Part shown: one piece after another, positions 21,501-50,608 of the stretch
Layout: each line of letters begins with the position of its first letter
Position numbering within the stretch: the first letter of the stretch is position 1
NCBI RefSeq assembly: GCF_016593255.1
Contig: NZ_AP023212.1
Location: forward strand, 1,414,001 to 1,478,000
Origin: Hydrogenimonas urashimensis
GTDB lineage: Bacteria > Campylobacterota > Campylobacteria > Campylobacterales > Hydrogenimonadaceae
Direction: 5' to 3'
Length of the DNA: 64,000 nt
Made by a program: the position numbers and the translations under genes
Notes under the pieces: generated by a model
The model's input: the letters and a program-made list of their open reading frames with translations, nothing else
Database searches by the model: none
Told to the model about the DNA's origin: nothing

Positions 21501-21644
21501 GATGGAAGCGAGTGTGACCAGATGCTGGTTCGCCATCGCCGAACCCTCGATCGCGGATACGATCCATCGCCGTCTACGTACTTCCACCAATTGACCGGGT
21601 TCGGGAAGCCTCCCGATCGATAGACGATCCTCGGGTGTCCTCAT
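18504..21644 (-). CDS. drmD: DISARM SNF2-type helicase DrmD
   Basis: A 1046-residue Swi2/Snf2 helicase, the marker of class 1 DISARM. Walker A lies in LIADDVGLGKTIEAGLV (Gly-Lys-Thr at about 145-147), motif II is LIVDEAHN, motif III is LSATPHNG and motifs V/VI are DAASEGIDLQNHCHYLVHVE and RNGRIDRHGQ. A C-terminal helical region of some 350 residues follows the helicase core. The ATG overlaps the drmMII stop as ATGA. Presence of drmD with drmMI, and absence of drmE, places the system in class 1. Confidence 0.94.
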   Translation of the reverse strand: MRTPEDRLSIGRLPEPGQLVEVRRRRWIVSAIEGSAMANQHLVTLASIDEDSLGEELQVIWQIEPGARVLERASLPKLTGFDDTERLETFLDAVGWGAVTNADRNFLQAPFRSGIAIEDYQLDPLVRSIDMSRVTLLIADDVGLGKTIEAGLVVQELLVRHRARSVLVVCPASLQIKWKTEMWEKFGLEFRIVDTDYIRGLRRERGVTANPWTSFPRLIVSMDWIKTGEGLRTLRDVLPPHVTYPRRFDVLIVDEAHNVAPSGTGRYAIESLRTKAMRLLSPHFEHRLFLSATPHNGYTESFTSLLELLDDRRFARNVVPDGKTLEKVMVRRLKSDLVDAEGKPLYPRRILKALEIDYDEEELKAHETLRRYTLSRIARSEGTRWAFGETFVLKLLKKRLFSSPRAFATTLRKYADRVLKGVRERRKTVVDEKILHKAIAEAAEEYADEGRHEEALDEAVELASEATVPLDDEEKGMLQELLSWVSIAEGRADSKAEAILSWLENHLKDHGEWNDERVVLFTEYRATQNWLQEILVSHGYGGKRLAILHGGTPSDEREEIKAAFQTDPAISPVRILLATDAASEGIDLQNHCHYLVHVEIPWNPNVMEQRNGRIDRHGQKASEVVVWHPVGKDYERESASGGKFSSLAGDMEFLMRAAMKVNAIREDLGSVGSVVAKQIEEAMLGRRRELDTKRAEEKAEKARRILATERATKERIAKLHAKLVETRRDYHLSPEYVRRAVSLALELAGKPPLEPVSMEGYPEGSLYRVPPLSGSWSKALEGLHHPFTHELRPVTFDYEVAKGREDVVLVHLEHKLVQMSLRLLREELWSPEDVGKLHRADVRAVKGLEEIVAILRSRLVVTGGDFATLHEEIVLSGGYLRENAHARIRTLGTMEEWLDVAVPISPDPVLADILKRRYDRHGEAILRAAEARSKERLEHLHNALDRRRDGEIRDVTKIFDELEETIRRELEEMKKPTQLLFDFAEEERAQFVKDERALERRLKRIPEEKKKEIETIERRYADRRHRTFPVAVTFLVPAEIYEGGGR

Positions 21645-22693
21645 GCCACGTTCTTTCCATGTGTATGTCGTCGAACGTGTTCCACGAGACTCGCACCGAT
21701 CGCTTCGGCGAGCGTCACGGGAACGGCGTTCCCGATCATCCTGCCTATCGTCTTCATATGGATGGGAGCATCGGGCGGAACGAATTCGTAATCGGGCGGA
21801 AATCCTTGGAATATCGCTCCTTCCCGCAGGGAGATGGCTCTATCCTGCTCCGGGTGGCCGAAACGGCCGTTGCCGTATCCGTAGAACTGAGTGGTCATCG
21901 TGGGTGCCGGTTCGTCCCACGTCATTCGAGCGTAGACTCCCGGATAGGTCTTGCCGGAAGATTTTCTGTGACATTCGGCCACGAGATGCGGGGGCCAATC
22001 GCGCCAGGTACCACCGGGCTTCGAATGACGGATGCGTTCCTCGTTGAGAGGGGACAGAGCGGAGCAGCGATGCAGGGGATCGTTCGGGTCGGCTTCTCCA
22101 TGTCGTAGAGGCGGGAGCTCCGCGATGGCGTCACGAACGGTTCTGGTCGTCGTTCCGAGCCATTCGGGAGAGAGCATTTCGATCTCCCCGATTCTAGAAG
22201 CGAGAAGAACGAGACGTTTTCGACGCTGAGGCAAACCGTACACGGATGCGTCCACGACGTCGCACCAGACGCGATAACCGTTTTTCTTCAATTTCTCGAC
22301 GAAATCGTCGAACACGTCCCGATCCTTCAGTCCCGGGACGTTCTCCATCGTGACCAGTTCGGGATTCACCTCTTCGACGAGTCGTCCGAATTCCGACAAC
22401 AACCACCAACGACGATCGGTCGGACAGGCCTTCTGGTTGTACGTCGAGAAAGTCTGGCAAGGTGCACAACCGGCCAACAGACGTGTCGAACCCCCGCCAT
22501 AACGTTCCAGCAGTTCCTCTCCAGTCACCTCGTCCACGGACTTCACGAGAAAATCGGCCTCGTTGTTCTTCACGTAGGCATACTCGCAAGCGCGGTCCAC
22601 GTCCACCCCGAGTCGTACGCGGATCCCAGCACGCTTCAATCCGTGGGTCAATCCTCCCACCCCACAGAACAGGTCTATCGCTTCGATTTTCAC
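21641..22693 (-). CDS. drmMII: DISARM cytosine-C5 DNA methyltransferase (DrmMII-like)
   Basis: A 350-residue Dcm-type methyltransferase. Motif I is DLFCGVGGLTHGL, the catalytic motif is GCAPCQTFS (Cys79), motif VI is MENVPG, motif VIII is QRRKRLVLLASR, and motif X is IGNAVPVTLAEAIG. It is the first gene of the operon and begins with GTG, with GGAG about 9 nt upstream. A TAGAAT -10-like box is found at 22723-22728. DrmMII is usually the modification enzyme of class 2 DISARM, whereas this operon also has the class 1 pair DrmD/DrmMI, so the host would carry both cytosine and adenine marks. The terminal vsr gene fits cytosine methylation. Confidence 0.9.
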   Translation of the reverse strand: MKIEAIDLFCGVGGLTHGLKRAGIRVRLGVDVDRACEYAYVKNNEADFLVKSVDEVTGEELLERYGGGSTRLLAGCAPCQTFSTYNQKACPTDRRWWLLSEFGRLVEEVNPELVTMENVPGLKDRDVFDDFVEKLKKNGYRVWCDVVDASVYGLPQRRKRLVLLASRIGEIEMLSPEWLGTTTRTVRDAIAELPPLRHGEADPNDPLHRCSALSPLNEERIRHSKPGGTWRDWPPHLVAECHRKSSGKTYPGVYARMTWDEPAPTMTTQFYGYGNGRFGHPEQDRAISLREGAIFQGFPPDYEFVPPDAPIHMKTIGRMIGNAVPVTLAEAIGASLVEHVRRHTHGKNVA

Positions 22694-22886
22694 TCATCTT
22701 CTCCAATCGATTGATGTATTTTATTCTATCCAAAAACCGTTCAGAAAAAGAGAAGAGGATCCTATGAATATGGAGTTGATGAAAACGGCAAACGGCAAAT
22801 GGTTTTCGAATGGGCGCAGTCTATGACAAGACCCCTCCCTTTCTGCACACCTAAGCCGCTAAACGAAATACCTCTACAGGTGTTTT

Positions 22887-23711
22887 TTATCGCAGCGCCG
22901 AATGTTTGCGTTTGTGGTTGTAGAAGTCGATCCAGTCTCCGATGATTTTGGTGGCCTCCTTGAGCGATTTGAAGTTGTGATGCCAGATGCACTCCTCTTT
23001 GATGGTGCGGAAGAAACGCTCGATCATGCCGTTTTGTCCTCGGCTCCGCCTGCGGGGCTGTCGCCTTCGGCTCGGACGCTCTGGGATGTAGGGCGTGATG
23101 AACTCCTGGGAAAGATTGTAATCTTTGACCGTTTTGGCGAACGACTTGCTGGTGAAGACCAATCCGTTGTCGCTTCGCAAGGTGATCTCTCTTTCCACCC
23201 TTTTGAGTCTGCCGAAACGGTAGATGAGCCCCTCCTGCAGTGCCGCCTCCGCCGTCTTGGCTTTGCCGCTTTTTGAGAGCCTCCAGCCCACAATCTCTCG
23301 GGTACAGGTATCGATGACGGCGGCCAGGGTGCTCCAGCCATCCTTTTGGCTCCATACGCGGGTCATGTCGATGGCCCATCTTCGATCGGGAATCTGTGAG
23401 CGTGAGGGCATCGCCTTGGCCCTTGGCCTATGGCCTTTGGAACGTTTTCGCACCTGCCAGCCTTTGAGCCGCAGAATGCGCTGGACCACCTTTTTGTTCA
23501 TTCCCACCAGCAGGGCCAGGCGCCGGTAGCCGTAGGTCGGAAACTCGTTTATTTTCTCCTTGACTTTTCTGACGCGCTCTTCATCCAGTTTCGGCGTTCT
23601 TTGGATGGGCTTGTAATAGAAACTCCTACGAGGAATGTCGAACAGACGACAGAGCTTCGTGATGCTGATCGGATGGCCTTCATTTCTCATTTCGCTCTGA
23701 ACTCGCATCAC
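22887..23711 (-). pseudogene. IS3-family transposase OrfB with 14-codon insert
   Basis: The DDE integrase-type transposase of an IS3 element. Visible are the HTH_21 region (YKPIQRTPKLDEERV), then DRRWAIDMTRVW (first Asp), LRSDNGLVFTS (second Asp) and the Glu region NGMIERFFRTIKEE. Between TPYIPE and QNGMIERF, where IS3 proteins run on without interruption, 14 extra Arg/Pro/Ser-rich residues are inserted in frame (42 bp at 23037-23078). A slippery A AAA AAG lies at about 23740, ahead of the in-frame ATG, as in IS3 elements that fuse OrfA and OrfB by -1 frameshifting. The frame is open but the insert lies next to the catalytic Glu, so activity is doubtful. Confidence 0.85.
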
Positions 23712-23784
23712 TTCTTCTCTTCCCCTACAGAAAAGTCGTACTTTTTTCTCGAAGAGAGTGATTCGCTGCGCGAACCGCTTCGCT

Positions 23785-24063
23785 TCACAAGAAAGCGATG
23801 TTCTCCAACGTCAGCTCTCCCATGACCTCTTTCATCGCTTTGATCTTCTCTTCGTACACTGCGGCGATATCTTTCGGTCTGGCCCGCAACTGGTTCTCCA
23901 TCCCCGCTCGGGCCTCCTCCATCCACTCTTCAATGGTGGCGGGTGTCAGATCATACTTGCGCGACACTTCGGCCACGGTCGTCTTGCCCTAGAATATATC
24001 CATCACGATATCCATTTTCTTTTTGGCCGTAAAGCGTTTGATCTGTGGTTGCTGTTCTTCCAA
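23785..24063 (-). pseudogene. IS3-family OrfA, interrupted
   Basis: This frame starts at a TTG (24063) with AGGAG 6 nt upstream and encodes EEQQPQIKRFTAKKKMDI. It then hits an in-frame TAG at about 23992 and resumes as VAEVSRKYDLTPATIEEW, an HTH_Tnp_1-type helix-turn-helix. After LENIAFL it is cut by TGA at the left edge of an odd GC-rich segment (about 23757-23787, containing GCGAAGCGGTTCGCG) that separates it from the orfB frame. The amber codon and the extra segment both suggest decay. Programmed readthrough cannot be excluded but seems unlikely. Confidence 0.75.
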
Positions 24064-25026: not shown

Positions 25027-25092
25027 GGTTGTATTGAAATATCAATGAAGTGGTACGCCCATCAGGATTCGAACCTGAGACCTACGGCTTAG

Positions 25093-25731
25093 CTTACCAT
25101 CTACAGTTTTCACTGCCCCGTTTACGGGTTTGTGGTCTGGACCATCTCTTCACCATCTCAGGTGTTGCACGTATGGCCTCTACGGAACTCTGCGATAATC
25201 TTCAAGCAGTTTTACTCCCGCTTTCTGATTATTTCTCGGTGCTTCTACCCTCAAGGTGACAGATCTGTTGAATCGCTTTGGATCAAAATAGTAACATCGA
25301 TCCATCTGAGGCACATAGATACAATAAATATCTATCTCTTCTTTATTGACCGAATTCTCATGAATACCATGCCTGTCCGCCCATGAAGAACGGAAATGTA
25401 TGGTAACCGATCCTCTGCTGTCAACAGCTCTATATTTGACCTGTACCCTCTTGAATTGACCCTCTTTGTATATACAAAGATCGAATGGGGCATGTTCCGT
25501 TTGGGGCAGCAGGATCATATAACCCTGCTCAAACAGGTCGACTTGAGCCTTCAAAACACCTAAGTCGCCTTTGGTTTTGGTATGGTGCATACTACACAAC
25601 CTTTTGCGACTACAGATTTCCTCGGGGTTGCCATCAGCACGATCTGTTAAGGGTTCCCCGATACAGTGCAATCCACTCTATAGGTTCCGTTTCCCTATAG
25701 AGGCTCCTTTTTTCGTATGTAACAATAGCTA
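25093..25731 (-). other. Group I intron in tRNA-Arg(TCT)
   Basis: The intron follows a T in the exon and ends with G (AAG before the CTAAGCC exon). Group I core-like segments are visible in the RNA sense: an AAAAGGAGCC near the 5' end that could act as guide opposite the exon end GGCCTT, then ACCCTTAACAGATCG and GATGGCAACCCCG upstream of the reading frame, and GAAGAGATGGTCCAGACC near the 3' end, which resembles the P7/J8-7 consensus. The homing endonuclease gene sits in the middle. The exact helices need a covariance-model fold. Confidence 0.85.
25180..25590 (-). CDS. Intron-encoded PD-(D/E)XK homing endonuclease (I-Ssp6803I-like)
   Basis: A 136-residue protein starting MHHTKTKGDLGVLKAQ. The family (PDDEXK_5, prototype I-Ssp6803I from a cyanobacterial tRNA-fMet intron) cleaves intron-less alleles and so spreads the intron. 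The catalytic region reads APFDLCIYKEGQFKRVQVKYR split over residues 34-54: Asp37, then Gln50 and Lys52, the same D...QxK pattern as the prototype, where Gln replaces the usual Glu. EIDIYCIYVPQMDRCYYFDP and SVTLRVEAPRNNQ are further family features. The position where the family normally has a Glu in the first helix appears to be Val12. The frame extends upstream to 25671, but the homology begins at this ATG. Confidence 0.87.
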   Translation of the reverse strand: MHHTKTKGDLGVLKAQVDLFEQGYMILLPQTEHAPFDLCIYKEGQFKRVQVKYRAVDSRGSVTIHFRSSWADRHGIHENSVNKEEIDIYCIYVPQMDRCYYFDPKRFNRSVTLRVEAPRNNQKAGVKLLEDYRRVP

Positions 25732-25784
25732 AAGGCCGTTGCTCTATCCAGCTGAGCTATGGGCGCTCAAGTTTGGATTGACGG

Positions 25785-30715: not shown

Positions 30716-30791
30716 TGGAGGCGGCACCCGGAGTTGAACACGGGGATCACAGCCTTGCGGGGCTGCTGCCTTAGCACTTGGCTATACCGCC
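30716..30791 (-). tRNA. Aberrant tRNA-Cys-like gene, copy 1
   Basis: A 76-nt tRNA-like sequence with CCA. The acceptor GGCGGTA/TGCCGCC and D arm match those of tRNA-Cys, but the anticodon stem GCAGC/GCTGT encloses eight bases, CCCGCAAG, instead of seven; the alternative stem CAGCC/GGCTG leaves only six. GCA is the likely anticodon. The T arm has an extra T and a T loop TTCAACT in place of TTCGAAT. The same 76 nt occur again 176 bp away on the other side of a normal tRNA-Cys. Function is uncertain: it may be a specialised or a decaying tRNA. Confidence 0.65.
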
Positions 30792-30891: not shown

Positions 30892-30967
30892 TGGAGGCGG
30901 CACCCGGAGTTGAACACGGGGATCACAGCCTTGCGGGGCTGCTGCCTTAGCACTTGGCTATACCGCC
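30892..30967 (-). tRNA. Aberrant tRNA-Cys-like gene, copy 2
   Basis: Identical over all 76 nt to copy 1, including the eight-base anticodon loop CCCGCAAG and the bulged T arm. Exact identity of both copies suggests recent duplication, gene conversion or selection. Confidence 0.65.
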
Positions 30968-48599: not shown

Positions 48600-50419
48600 A
48601 TTTTGACCTCACTTGTCTGCTCCTTGATCAGTTTGATAAATGCTTCCGCGTCCAGATCGAACTGTTCGCGTTTCCTTCTGTCGCGAACCGCCACTTTGCG
48701 GTTCGCCACCTCTTCGTCTCCGATAATGGCGATCATCGGCACCTTCTGCTTCTCCGCCATCCGCACCCGTTTGGCCAGTGATTCGTTCCTGTCGTCGATA
48801 TCGCAGTCGATATCGAATTCGGCCAGTTCGTTCGCCAGCTCCTTGGCGTAGGCGACATGATTCTCGGCGATCGGCACGAAAATCACCTGCGTCGGTGCGA
48901 TGAACATCGGAAACTCCCCGGCGAAATGCTCCGTCAAAATGGCGATGAAGCGCTCGAAACTGCCGAGAATCGCGCGGTGGATCATCACCGGACGCGCCCG
49001 CTCGTTTTTTTCATCCACATACTCCATTTCGAATCGTTCAGGAAGATTGAAATCGACCTGAATCGTTCCGCACTGCCATTTCCTTCTCAAAGCATCGGTA
49101 ATTTTGATATCGATTTTAGGGCCGTAAAAGGCTCCGCCCCCTTCGTCGATCCCGTATTTGAAGCCGTTTTCGTCCAGCGCCTCTTTCAGGGCCTCTGTCG
49201 CCGTTTCCCATATTTCGTCGCTTCCGATCGCTTTTTCGGGCTTGGTGGAGATCTCCATCTCATAATCGAAACCGAAGACTTCCATCACTTTGTCGACGAA
49301 TTCGAGCACCTCGATGACGACGGGTTTGATCTGATCGGGTGTGCAGAAGATGTGGGCGTCATCCTGGGTAAATTCCCTGACACGCAACAGACCGTGAAGG
49401 ACGCCGCTTTGCTCATGGCGATGAACGACGCCGTACTCGAAATATTTGAGCGGCAGCTCCCGATAGCTGTGGATATCTTTTTTGTAGATGAGAATGTGGC
49501 CGATGCAGTTCATCGGCTTGAGGCCATACTCCTGGCCGTCGATTTCGGTCAGGTACATGTTTTCGCCATAGCAGGCGTAATGGCCGCTGGTACGCCACAT
49601 GTCGGCTTTGAGAATTTCGGGTCCGCGTACCGGCTCATACCCGCGGCGACGGTGGGCTTTCCAGAGAATCTGCTCGATCTTGCTGCGAAGACGCGCCCCT
49701 TTGGGCATCCAGAAAGGCAACCCCGCCCCCGCTTCGTCGTCGAACATGAAAAGCCCGAGCTCCGTGCCGATTTTGCGGTGGTCGCGTTTTTTGGCCTCTT
49801 CGATCATCGCCAGGTACTCTTTGAGCGTCTCCTTGTCGGCGAAGGCGATGCCATAGATGCGGGTGAGCATCTCTTTGTCGGAGTCGCCACCCAGGTAGGC
49901 CCCCGCCACGCGGGTGAGTTTGACGTTTCTGAGGTATTTCGTGTTGGGAACGTGGGGACCGCGGCAGAGGTCTTCGAAGTCCCCCTGGCGGTAGATGCAG
50001 AGCCTTTCGTCCTCGATCCGCTTCATCACTTCCTGCTTCAGATCGTCTCCGGCAAACTTCTTTTCCGCTTCGCTTTTGGGAATGCAGTAGCGTTCGATCG
50101 GGATCTTTTTGTTCGCCAGCTTCTGCATGGTTTTTTCGATCTTTTTGAGATCGCTGTCGCTGATCTTCTCGTCGACGCGAAAATCGTAGTAGAATCCCTC
50201 CTCAACAACAGGGCCGACGAAAAACTGCGCATCGGGATAGAGCTGTTTGATCGCCTGCGCCATCAGGTGGGCGGCGGAGTGGCGGATGACTTCCAAGGCT
50301 TCGGGGGAGTTGTCGAAGTAGACAGGTTCGCAGTCGCTGCAATCGGTTTCGGCAGCGGTTTGGGTATCGATTATCTGCCCATCTCTTTTTTTATAGGCAA
50401 TGATCTCTTTTTCTTCCAA
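48596..50419 (-). CDS. thrS: Threonyl-tRNA synthetase
   Basis: A 607-residue class II synthetase. The editing domain shows [19 protein letters not shown] with the HxxxH metal motif; the core has [15 protein letters not shown] (motif 1), [20 protein letters not shown] (motif 2) and [19 protein letters not shown] (motif 3). The N-terminal TGS domain of most bacterial ThrS is missing, with only about 35 residues before the editing domain, as usual in Campylobacterota. It heads the thrS-infC-rpmI-rplT group. Confidence 0.98.
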
Positions 50420-50463
50420 GCAATTCCTTGTTTAAACCGGTTAAAATTTCGAATGTTCGGAGT

Positions 50464-50469
50464 ATTATA
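50464..50469 (-). promoter_or_regulatory. -10 box of the thrS operon
   Basis: GTATAAT on the minus strand, 45 bp before the thrS start. Confidence 0.6.
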
Positions 50470-50532
50470 CATGAAAGAAGTATAAAAAAACATTTAAGGC
50501 TGGAAATTCAGGGATTTTGGAGAGAAGCGAAG

Positions 50533-50608
50533 TGGTGGCCACGACAGGACTTGAACCTGTGACCACTACCATGTCAAGGTAGTGCTCTACCAACTGAGCT
50601 ACGCGACC
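50533..50608 (-). tRNA. tRNA-Val(GAC)
   Basis: Complete 76-nt tRNA with CCA; anticodon arm CTACC-TTGACAT-GGTAG. A TATAAT box at 50624-50629 (minus strand) provides its own promoter. Confidence 0.95.

Follow-up and report, generated by a model that had tools for sequence, protein, structure and literature searches.

A group I intron carrying a PD-(D/E)XK homing endonuclease gene splits the only tRNA-Arg(UCU) gene of a Campylobacterota bacterium resembling Hydrogenimonas

The window analysed here, a stretch of 64,000 nucleotides, carries on its minus strand a cluster of tRNA genes in the order tRNA-Pro(TGG), tRNA-His(GTG), tRNA-Arg(TCG), a split tRNA-Arg and tRNA-Leu(TAG). Read on that strand, the split gene runs through 35 tRNA-Arg bases to ...ACGGCCTT, is interrupted by 639 bases, and resumes with CTAAGCCGT...ACCA. 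ARAGORN missed this tRNA-Arg(TCT) gene in its plain run and, when introns were allowed, placed a 639-nt intron at base 36 of a tRNA-Arg(tct). The authors of tRNAscan-SE 2.0 describe their own program as not designed for tRNA genes interrupted in this way (PMC8450103). The locus is composed of the following features:

25732 to 25766, minus strand: 5′ exon of tRNA-Arg(UCU), transcript bases 1 to 35, the last being anticodon base U34 (from the sequence and from ARAGORN with introns allowed)
25093 to 25731, minus strand: group I intron of 639 nt that separates anticodon bases 34 and 35, terminal G at 25093 (from P1–P10 covariation in 60 homologues and the invariant 5′-site U.G and 3′ G)
25180 to 25590, minus strand: homing endonuclease gene, 136 aa, PD-(D/E)XK (PF11645), I-Ssp6803I-like (from Pfam, PDB sequence and Foldseek)
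25051 to 25092, minus strand: 3′ exon of tRNA-Arg(UCU), the first base being anticodon base C35, CCA encoded (from the sequence, from ARAGORN with introns allowed, and from identity of the joined exons to intron-less alleles of congeners)

A preliminary description of this DNA had proposed these exon boundaries and a perfect tRNA-Arg(TCT) rebuilt from them, and every coordinate holds on the minus strand. Specifically, the joined exons are identical at 77 of 77 bases to the uninterrupted tRNA-Arg(TCT) genes of four congeners, and six further congeners have uninterrupted genes that share 75–76 of the 77 bases. The screen of relatives for intron-less alleles, which the same description had recommended, thus yields ten congeners among the 18 genus genomes searched, all retaining the gene order Pro-His-Arg(TCG)-Arg(TCT)-Leu(TAG). 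Within the genus the intron is patchy, occurring in 2 of the roughly 12 congeners in which a tRNA-Arg(TCT) gene was found. One of these, G308, holds an intron at the identical site with a core 92% identical to that of the window; its endonuclease frame appears to be broken by a frameshift, in a genome that is a draft MAG. Locus L050, from a Hydrogenimonas MAG, seems to be the G308 copy again, as both introns are 634 nt long. Chance is excluded as the origin of this arrangement, because homologous introns occupy the same point in the tRNA-Arg(TCT) genes of other genomes; counting that of the window, 60 such same-site introns bear out the proposal that a 639-nt intron splits the anticodon.

With respect to the class of the intron, the group IC3 introns known from bacterial tRNA genes have a U.G pair at the 5′ splice site and a terminal G. 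Relatives were gathered via the endonuclease, and 60 ORF-bearing introns with both splice sites, including that of the window, were extracted. The helices P1 to P10 were placed on the window sequence following known group I architecture and then scored on the resulting 60-row alignment, which gave the following elements:

25701 to 25707, minus strand: internal guide sequence GGAGCCT (U.G in 60 of 60)
25676 to 25702, minus strand: P2 hairpin (538 of 540 cells paired)
25666 to 25671, minus strand: P3 5′ strand, partner 25165–25170 (360 of 360 paired, at most six pair types per position)
25622 to 25661, minus strand: P4–P5 domain (P4 358 of 360, P5 119 of 120)
25612 to 25621, minus strand: P6 5′ strand, partner 25184–25193, with the nuclease gene within the P6 loop (60-row alignment)
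25174 to 25180, minus strand: P7 5′ strand GAGGCCA with bulged A, partner 25139–25144, putative guanosine-binding site (359 of 360 paired)
25165 to 25170, minus strand: P3 3′ strand (60-row alignment)
25151 to 25164, minus strand: P8 hairpin (240 of 240 cells paired)
25139 to 25144, minus strand: P7 3′ strand (60-row alignment)
25093 to 25136, minus strand: P9.0, P9 and P9.1 (231 of 240, 215 of 239 and 237 of 240 cells paired), then the terminal G

The core-like segments noted earlier are thereby upgraded to a canonical group I core with covariation across the 60 introns. With P10 set aside, 94% of all helix cells are paired, as compared with 23–44% when the partner strand is slid by 1–4 bases. 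The P3/P7 pseudoknot is paired in 360 of 360 (P3) and 359 of 360 (P7) cells, many of them via compensatory change, and the bulged A of P7 is invariant (60 of 60) together with its adjoining G-C pairs. At the 5′ splice site, the guide GAGCCU pairs with GGCCUU of the 5′ exon, leaving a conserved mismatch opposite base 31; the splice-site U.G, the C-G, the U-A or U-G, and the G-C pairs of P1 are each found in 60 of 60 introns. The G that precedes GAGCCU in the guide sequence pairs with C35 to give P10. The 3′-terminal base of the intron is G in 60 of 60 rows, a count to be read knowing that the extraction pattern demanded this G and that ARAGORN boundaries give it independently in most rows. An alternative P1 of the form CCUU/AAGG was ruled out, as many relatives have UUGG there, whereas GAGCC is kept.

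The covariance-model search that had been recommended for this intron, and whose failure to find a group I core had been named as grounds for refutation, gave a divided answer. The Rfam group I model (RF00028, Intron_gpI) has no match on the window, on the intron alone or on the whole genome; two ORF-less Bacilli introns at the same tRNA site align to the model over its full length, positions 1–253 (E = 2e-5 and 6.6e-6), scoring 28–30 bits, below its 50-bit cut-off. The miss on the window intron is probably due to the long nuclease ORF (411 nt). It is no evidence against a group I core here, since the model aids detection and does not define the class.

The ORF itself occupies the P6 loop, with a stop codon that overlaps the first base of P7. 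That it encodes a homing endonuclease, as first suggested, is supported by Pfam (PF11645, E = 6.8e-36), by comparison with PDB sequences, where 2ost (I-Ssp6803I) was the sole match (E = 6.3e-5), and by the predicted fold, a model with a pLDDT of 91 for which the top Foldseek matches were to 2ost (E = 2.8e-10, TM 0.79). D37 and K52 are invariant and Q50 is present in the intron-borne members, and these residues align with 2ost; they form the D...(Q)xK pattern that we take to be catalytic. The window ORF is intact over its 136 codons and keeps the pattern D37...Q50-V51-K52. By analogy with I-Ssp6803I, the enzyme is expected to cleave the anticodon region of the tRNA gene without the intron and so to drive homing; the location of nearly all its relatives in or next to tRNA-Arg(UCU) is indirectly in line with this. 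The apparently broken frame in the congener that shares the intron, a draft MAG, suggests that nuclease activity may lack constant constraint. NCBIfam has no family for the nuclease, and PHROGs has one, of unknown function.

The split gene is also the only source of its anticodon. The tRNA-Arg anticodons of the genome are TCG, CCG, GCG and CCT, with TCT solely in the split gene; no second tRNA-Arg(TCT), which the preliminary description had considered capable of overturning its reading, is present among the 46 tRNA matches in the complete 2,297,889-bp genome, and its tRNA inventory holds no other tRNA able to read AGA by its anticodon. AGA makes up 188 of the 1309 Arg codons (~14%) in the long ORFs of the window. 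Given that there is no second tRNA-Arg(UCU), reading of AGA would require splicing of the intron, in agreement with the dependence first proposed.

Several other features of the genome and window were recorded. The genome lacks tRNA-Arg(ACG), and tRNA-Arg(GCG) apparently serves the CGY codons, an unusual arrangement among bacteria. A normal tRNA-Cys(GCA) is flanked by two 73-nt tRNA-like genes of identical sequence (30719–30791 and 30895–30967, minus strand); each scores 35.2 bits with the Rfam tRNA model, is uncalled by ARAGORN and has an anticodon loop (CAGCCCCGCAAGGCTG) apparently without U33, and they look like diverged tRNA-Cys copies. An Rfam match to the HPnc0260 antisense RNA (50419–50571, plus strand; 69.5 bits, above cut-off) overlaps tRNA-Val(GAC) on the opposite strand. 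Near the tRNA cluster (21641–24000, minus strand), ORF translations point to a pair of IS3-type transposase genes and to a gene that probably encodes a DNA cytosine methyltransferase.

Beyond this genus, relatives of the nuclease were absent from 297 other sampled Campylobacterota genomes, and none was found in plasmids. The nuclease lies inside a tRNA-Arg(TCT) intron at 66 of 80 genome loci (a count that includes contig-end-cut, masked or exon-damaged cases, namely L055, L057, L059, L085 and L099), most of them from Gammaproteobacteria, Bacteroidota and Bacilli, other groups contributing single cases. Five Bacilli loci (L062, L076, L082, L095, L097) have a tRNA-Arg(TCT) gene with a 286–292-nt intron that lacks a nuclease ORF, and the nuclease gene lies 95–210 bases downstream of that tRNA gene. 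At 7 of the 80 loci (L056, L067, L089, L094, L106, L107, L111) the nuclease is near an intact tRNA-Arg(TCT), the free-standing nuclease of Actinobacteria being beside an intact tRNA-Arg(UCU); 2 of the 80 are decayed. Among 39 viral contigs, many of which are near copies of one another, 35 have a free-standing nuclease within about 130 bases of tRNA-Arg(TCT), the tRNA being intact except in L149, and in two the neighbour is tRNA-Ser(GCT), which has a one-base difference in its loop. A free-standing nuclease by tRNA-Arg(TCT) is likewise present in the phages Sf-FR1 and Herod, as well as in a third viral contig.

Individual loci in this collection show further peculiarities. ARAGORN labels such as Ser(gct), Leu(caa) and Pyl(cta) at related loci were set aside as boundary or loop artefacts, as most of these loci have either the CTT...G|CTAA junction or an uninterrupted CTTCTAA loop. 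The viral contigs L149 and L150 come from related phages whose nuclease regions are 85% alike; the neighbouring tRNA-Arg(TCT) of L149 differs in sequence and has a 229-nt ORF-less group I-like intron, and that of L150 is uninterrupted. Reading the two as a simple pair with and without the intron is ruled out, as the tRNA itself differs. In the viral loci L136–L142 and L144–L146, the intact tRNA-Arg(TCT) shares the 9 bases at its 5′ end with the free-standing nuclease gene, so that the last codons of the nuclease double as acceptor-stem sequence of the tRNA (GTTCCATAG in L136); in the introns, similar codons (GTTCCGTAG) make up P6 and the first part of P7. L108 and L113 (Ignavibacteria) have the same nuclease family with intron boundaries and a guide sequence that look different, as if the intron had inserted about 2 bases away within the same anticodon loop. 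L055 and L057 (Ectothiorhodospiraceae MAGs) retain intron and nuclease with one or both tRNA exons damaged or missing, and L059, from a record titled Halobacteria archaeon, is a locus of gammaproteobacterial type on a contig that is probably misbinned.

The nuclease tree contains at least four state changes on well supported branches; it is unrooted and built on few columns, so the direction of these changes is not readable from it. For example, L056, beside an intact gene, is sister (100/96) to the intron-borne L049. The relatives with which the window copy groups are from Bacilli and Bacteroidota (97/92), a position consistent with horizontal transfer. The three states, with the nuclease in the intron, beside an ORF-less intron, or free-standing beside an intact gene, are as the collaborative-homing model expects. 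We lean towards the view that one nuclease lineage, dedicated to the tRNA-Arg(UCU) anticodon arm, has moved repeatedly among these states in a natural collaborative-homing series, with phages as a likely carrier between phyla.

Among the closest known systems is I-Ssp6803I (PDB 2OST) with its host intron, which interrupts tRNA-fMet in Synechocystis sp. PCC 6803 and was reportedly described by Bonocora and Shub in 2001. Like the window, that system pairs an anticodon-loop group I intron with a small PD-(D/E)XK nuclease that belongs to the same family and has the same fold, but in another tRNA and another phylum, and the two nucleases share about 24% structural identity. More generally, group I introns are established in the tRNA genes of bacteria, as is a PD-(D/E)XK class among intron nucleases (PMC4033280, PMC3984707). 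Known hosts include cyanobacterial tRNA-Leu(UAA), Azoarcus tRNA-Ile(CAU) and Agrobacterium tRNA-Arg(CCU) (PMC4033280); these group IC3 introns likewise occupy bacterial tRNA anticodon loops and belong to the self-splicing class, but are mostly ORF-less. Putative tRNA-Arg(TCT) group I introns in Beggiatoa BOGUAY and Ca. Thiomargarita nelsonii share host gene and anticodon with the window, whereas their hosts are Gammaproteobacteria rather than Campylobacterota and they were published without a structure (PMC4853749); the Thiomargarita locus is only ~324 bp (PMC4853749) and would therefore have no room for an ORF as long as the one described here. The earlier expectation that a Campylobacterota tRNA-Arg(TCT) intron would be unusual consequently survives in part: the host tRNA is not unusual, given these two genera (PMC4853749) and the frequency of the same lineage in Gammaproteobacteria, Bacteroidota and Bacilli, and only the Campylobacterota host looks unreported. 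We found no report of such an intron in Campylobacterota, or of the three-state association, in the open-access library searched, itself a part of the whole literature. Collaborative homing, in which a free-standing nuclease and an ORF-less intron share one target, is already published, for example for cyanophage psbA (PMC3984707). The psbA case resembles the tRNA-Arg(UCU) relatives in having a free-standing nuclease, an ORF-less intron and a composite intron that combines them; it differs in target and host range, and in the tRNA-Arg(UCU) case cleavage of a shared target is a prediction.

Taken together, these observations make it almost certain that the single-copy tRNA-Arg(UCU) gene of this Hydrogenimonas-like organism is host to a group I intron, apparently self-splicing and mobile, whose P6 loop encodes an endonuclease that would cut intron-less genes. 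The structure of the gene, the covariation of the core, the family of the endonuclease, the empty alleles and the missing backup tRNA are results of the analysis, and from them the chemistry of splicing, the cleavage and the homing are inferred. In the proposed mechanism, the core (P3–P9) in the pre-tRNA would bind guanosine in P7, and this guanosine would attack after U34, marked by the U.G pair of P1. The freed U34 would then attack after the terminal G, with the 3′ site aligned by P10 and P9.0, yielding the mature UCU anticodon. The PD-(D/E)XK enzyme would cleave the anticodon arm of tRNA-Arg(UCU) genes that lack the intron, and repair of the cut allele would copy the intron in.

The alternative with the most in its favour is that the intron splices while the endonuclease here has lost its activity or mobility, leaving a fixed, vertically kept intron. 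The apparently frameshifted endonuclease of the closest relative, in the same genus, speaks for this; we nonetheless regard it as unlikely, as the window ORF is intact at 136 codons with its active-site pattern retained, ten congeners are without the intron, and the window copy falls within a starred clade that includes Bacilli and Bacteroidota copies, which suggests horizontal arrival. It is much less probable again that the insert is not a group I intron at all, being a pseudogenised tRNA or a protein-spliced intron, with AGA read by a different tRNA. The unmatched Rfam group I model on the window copy would fit such an insertion, but the complete core with its compensatory changes and a tRNA inventory without another AGA-reading anticodon already refute it, and the tRNA exons are perfectly intact. 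Nothing was found in support of an assembly artefact or contamination, which we rank as the most improbable of all; the Halobacteria locus L059 suggests that such contigs are misbinned elsewhere, but the window is part of a complete single-contig genome, its tRNA neighbours are syntenic with those of congeners, and a second congener has the same intron in the same place.

The self-splicing, mobile intron that we favour has consequences at two levels. A sole AGA-reading tRNA that needs a ribozyme to mature would be a clear-cut example from nature of a selfish element with a hold on an essential gene, and, as both a plain tRNA search and the Rfam model miss the locus, AGA decoding would seem to be absent in such genomes. 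Moreover, with one nuclease family found at one tRNA target in three states across many phyla and phages, the question of how homing endonucleases enter introns becomes directly testable with closely related natural pairs.
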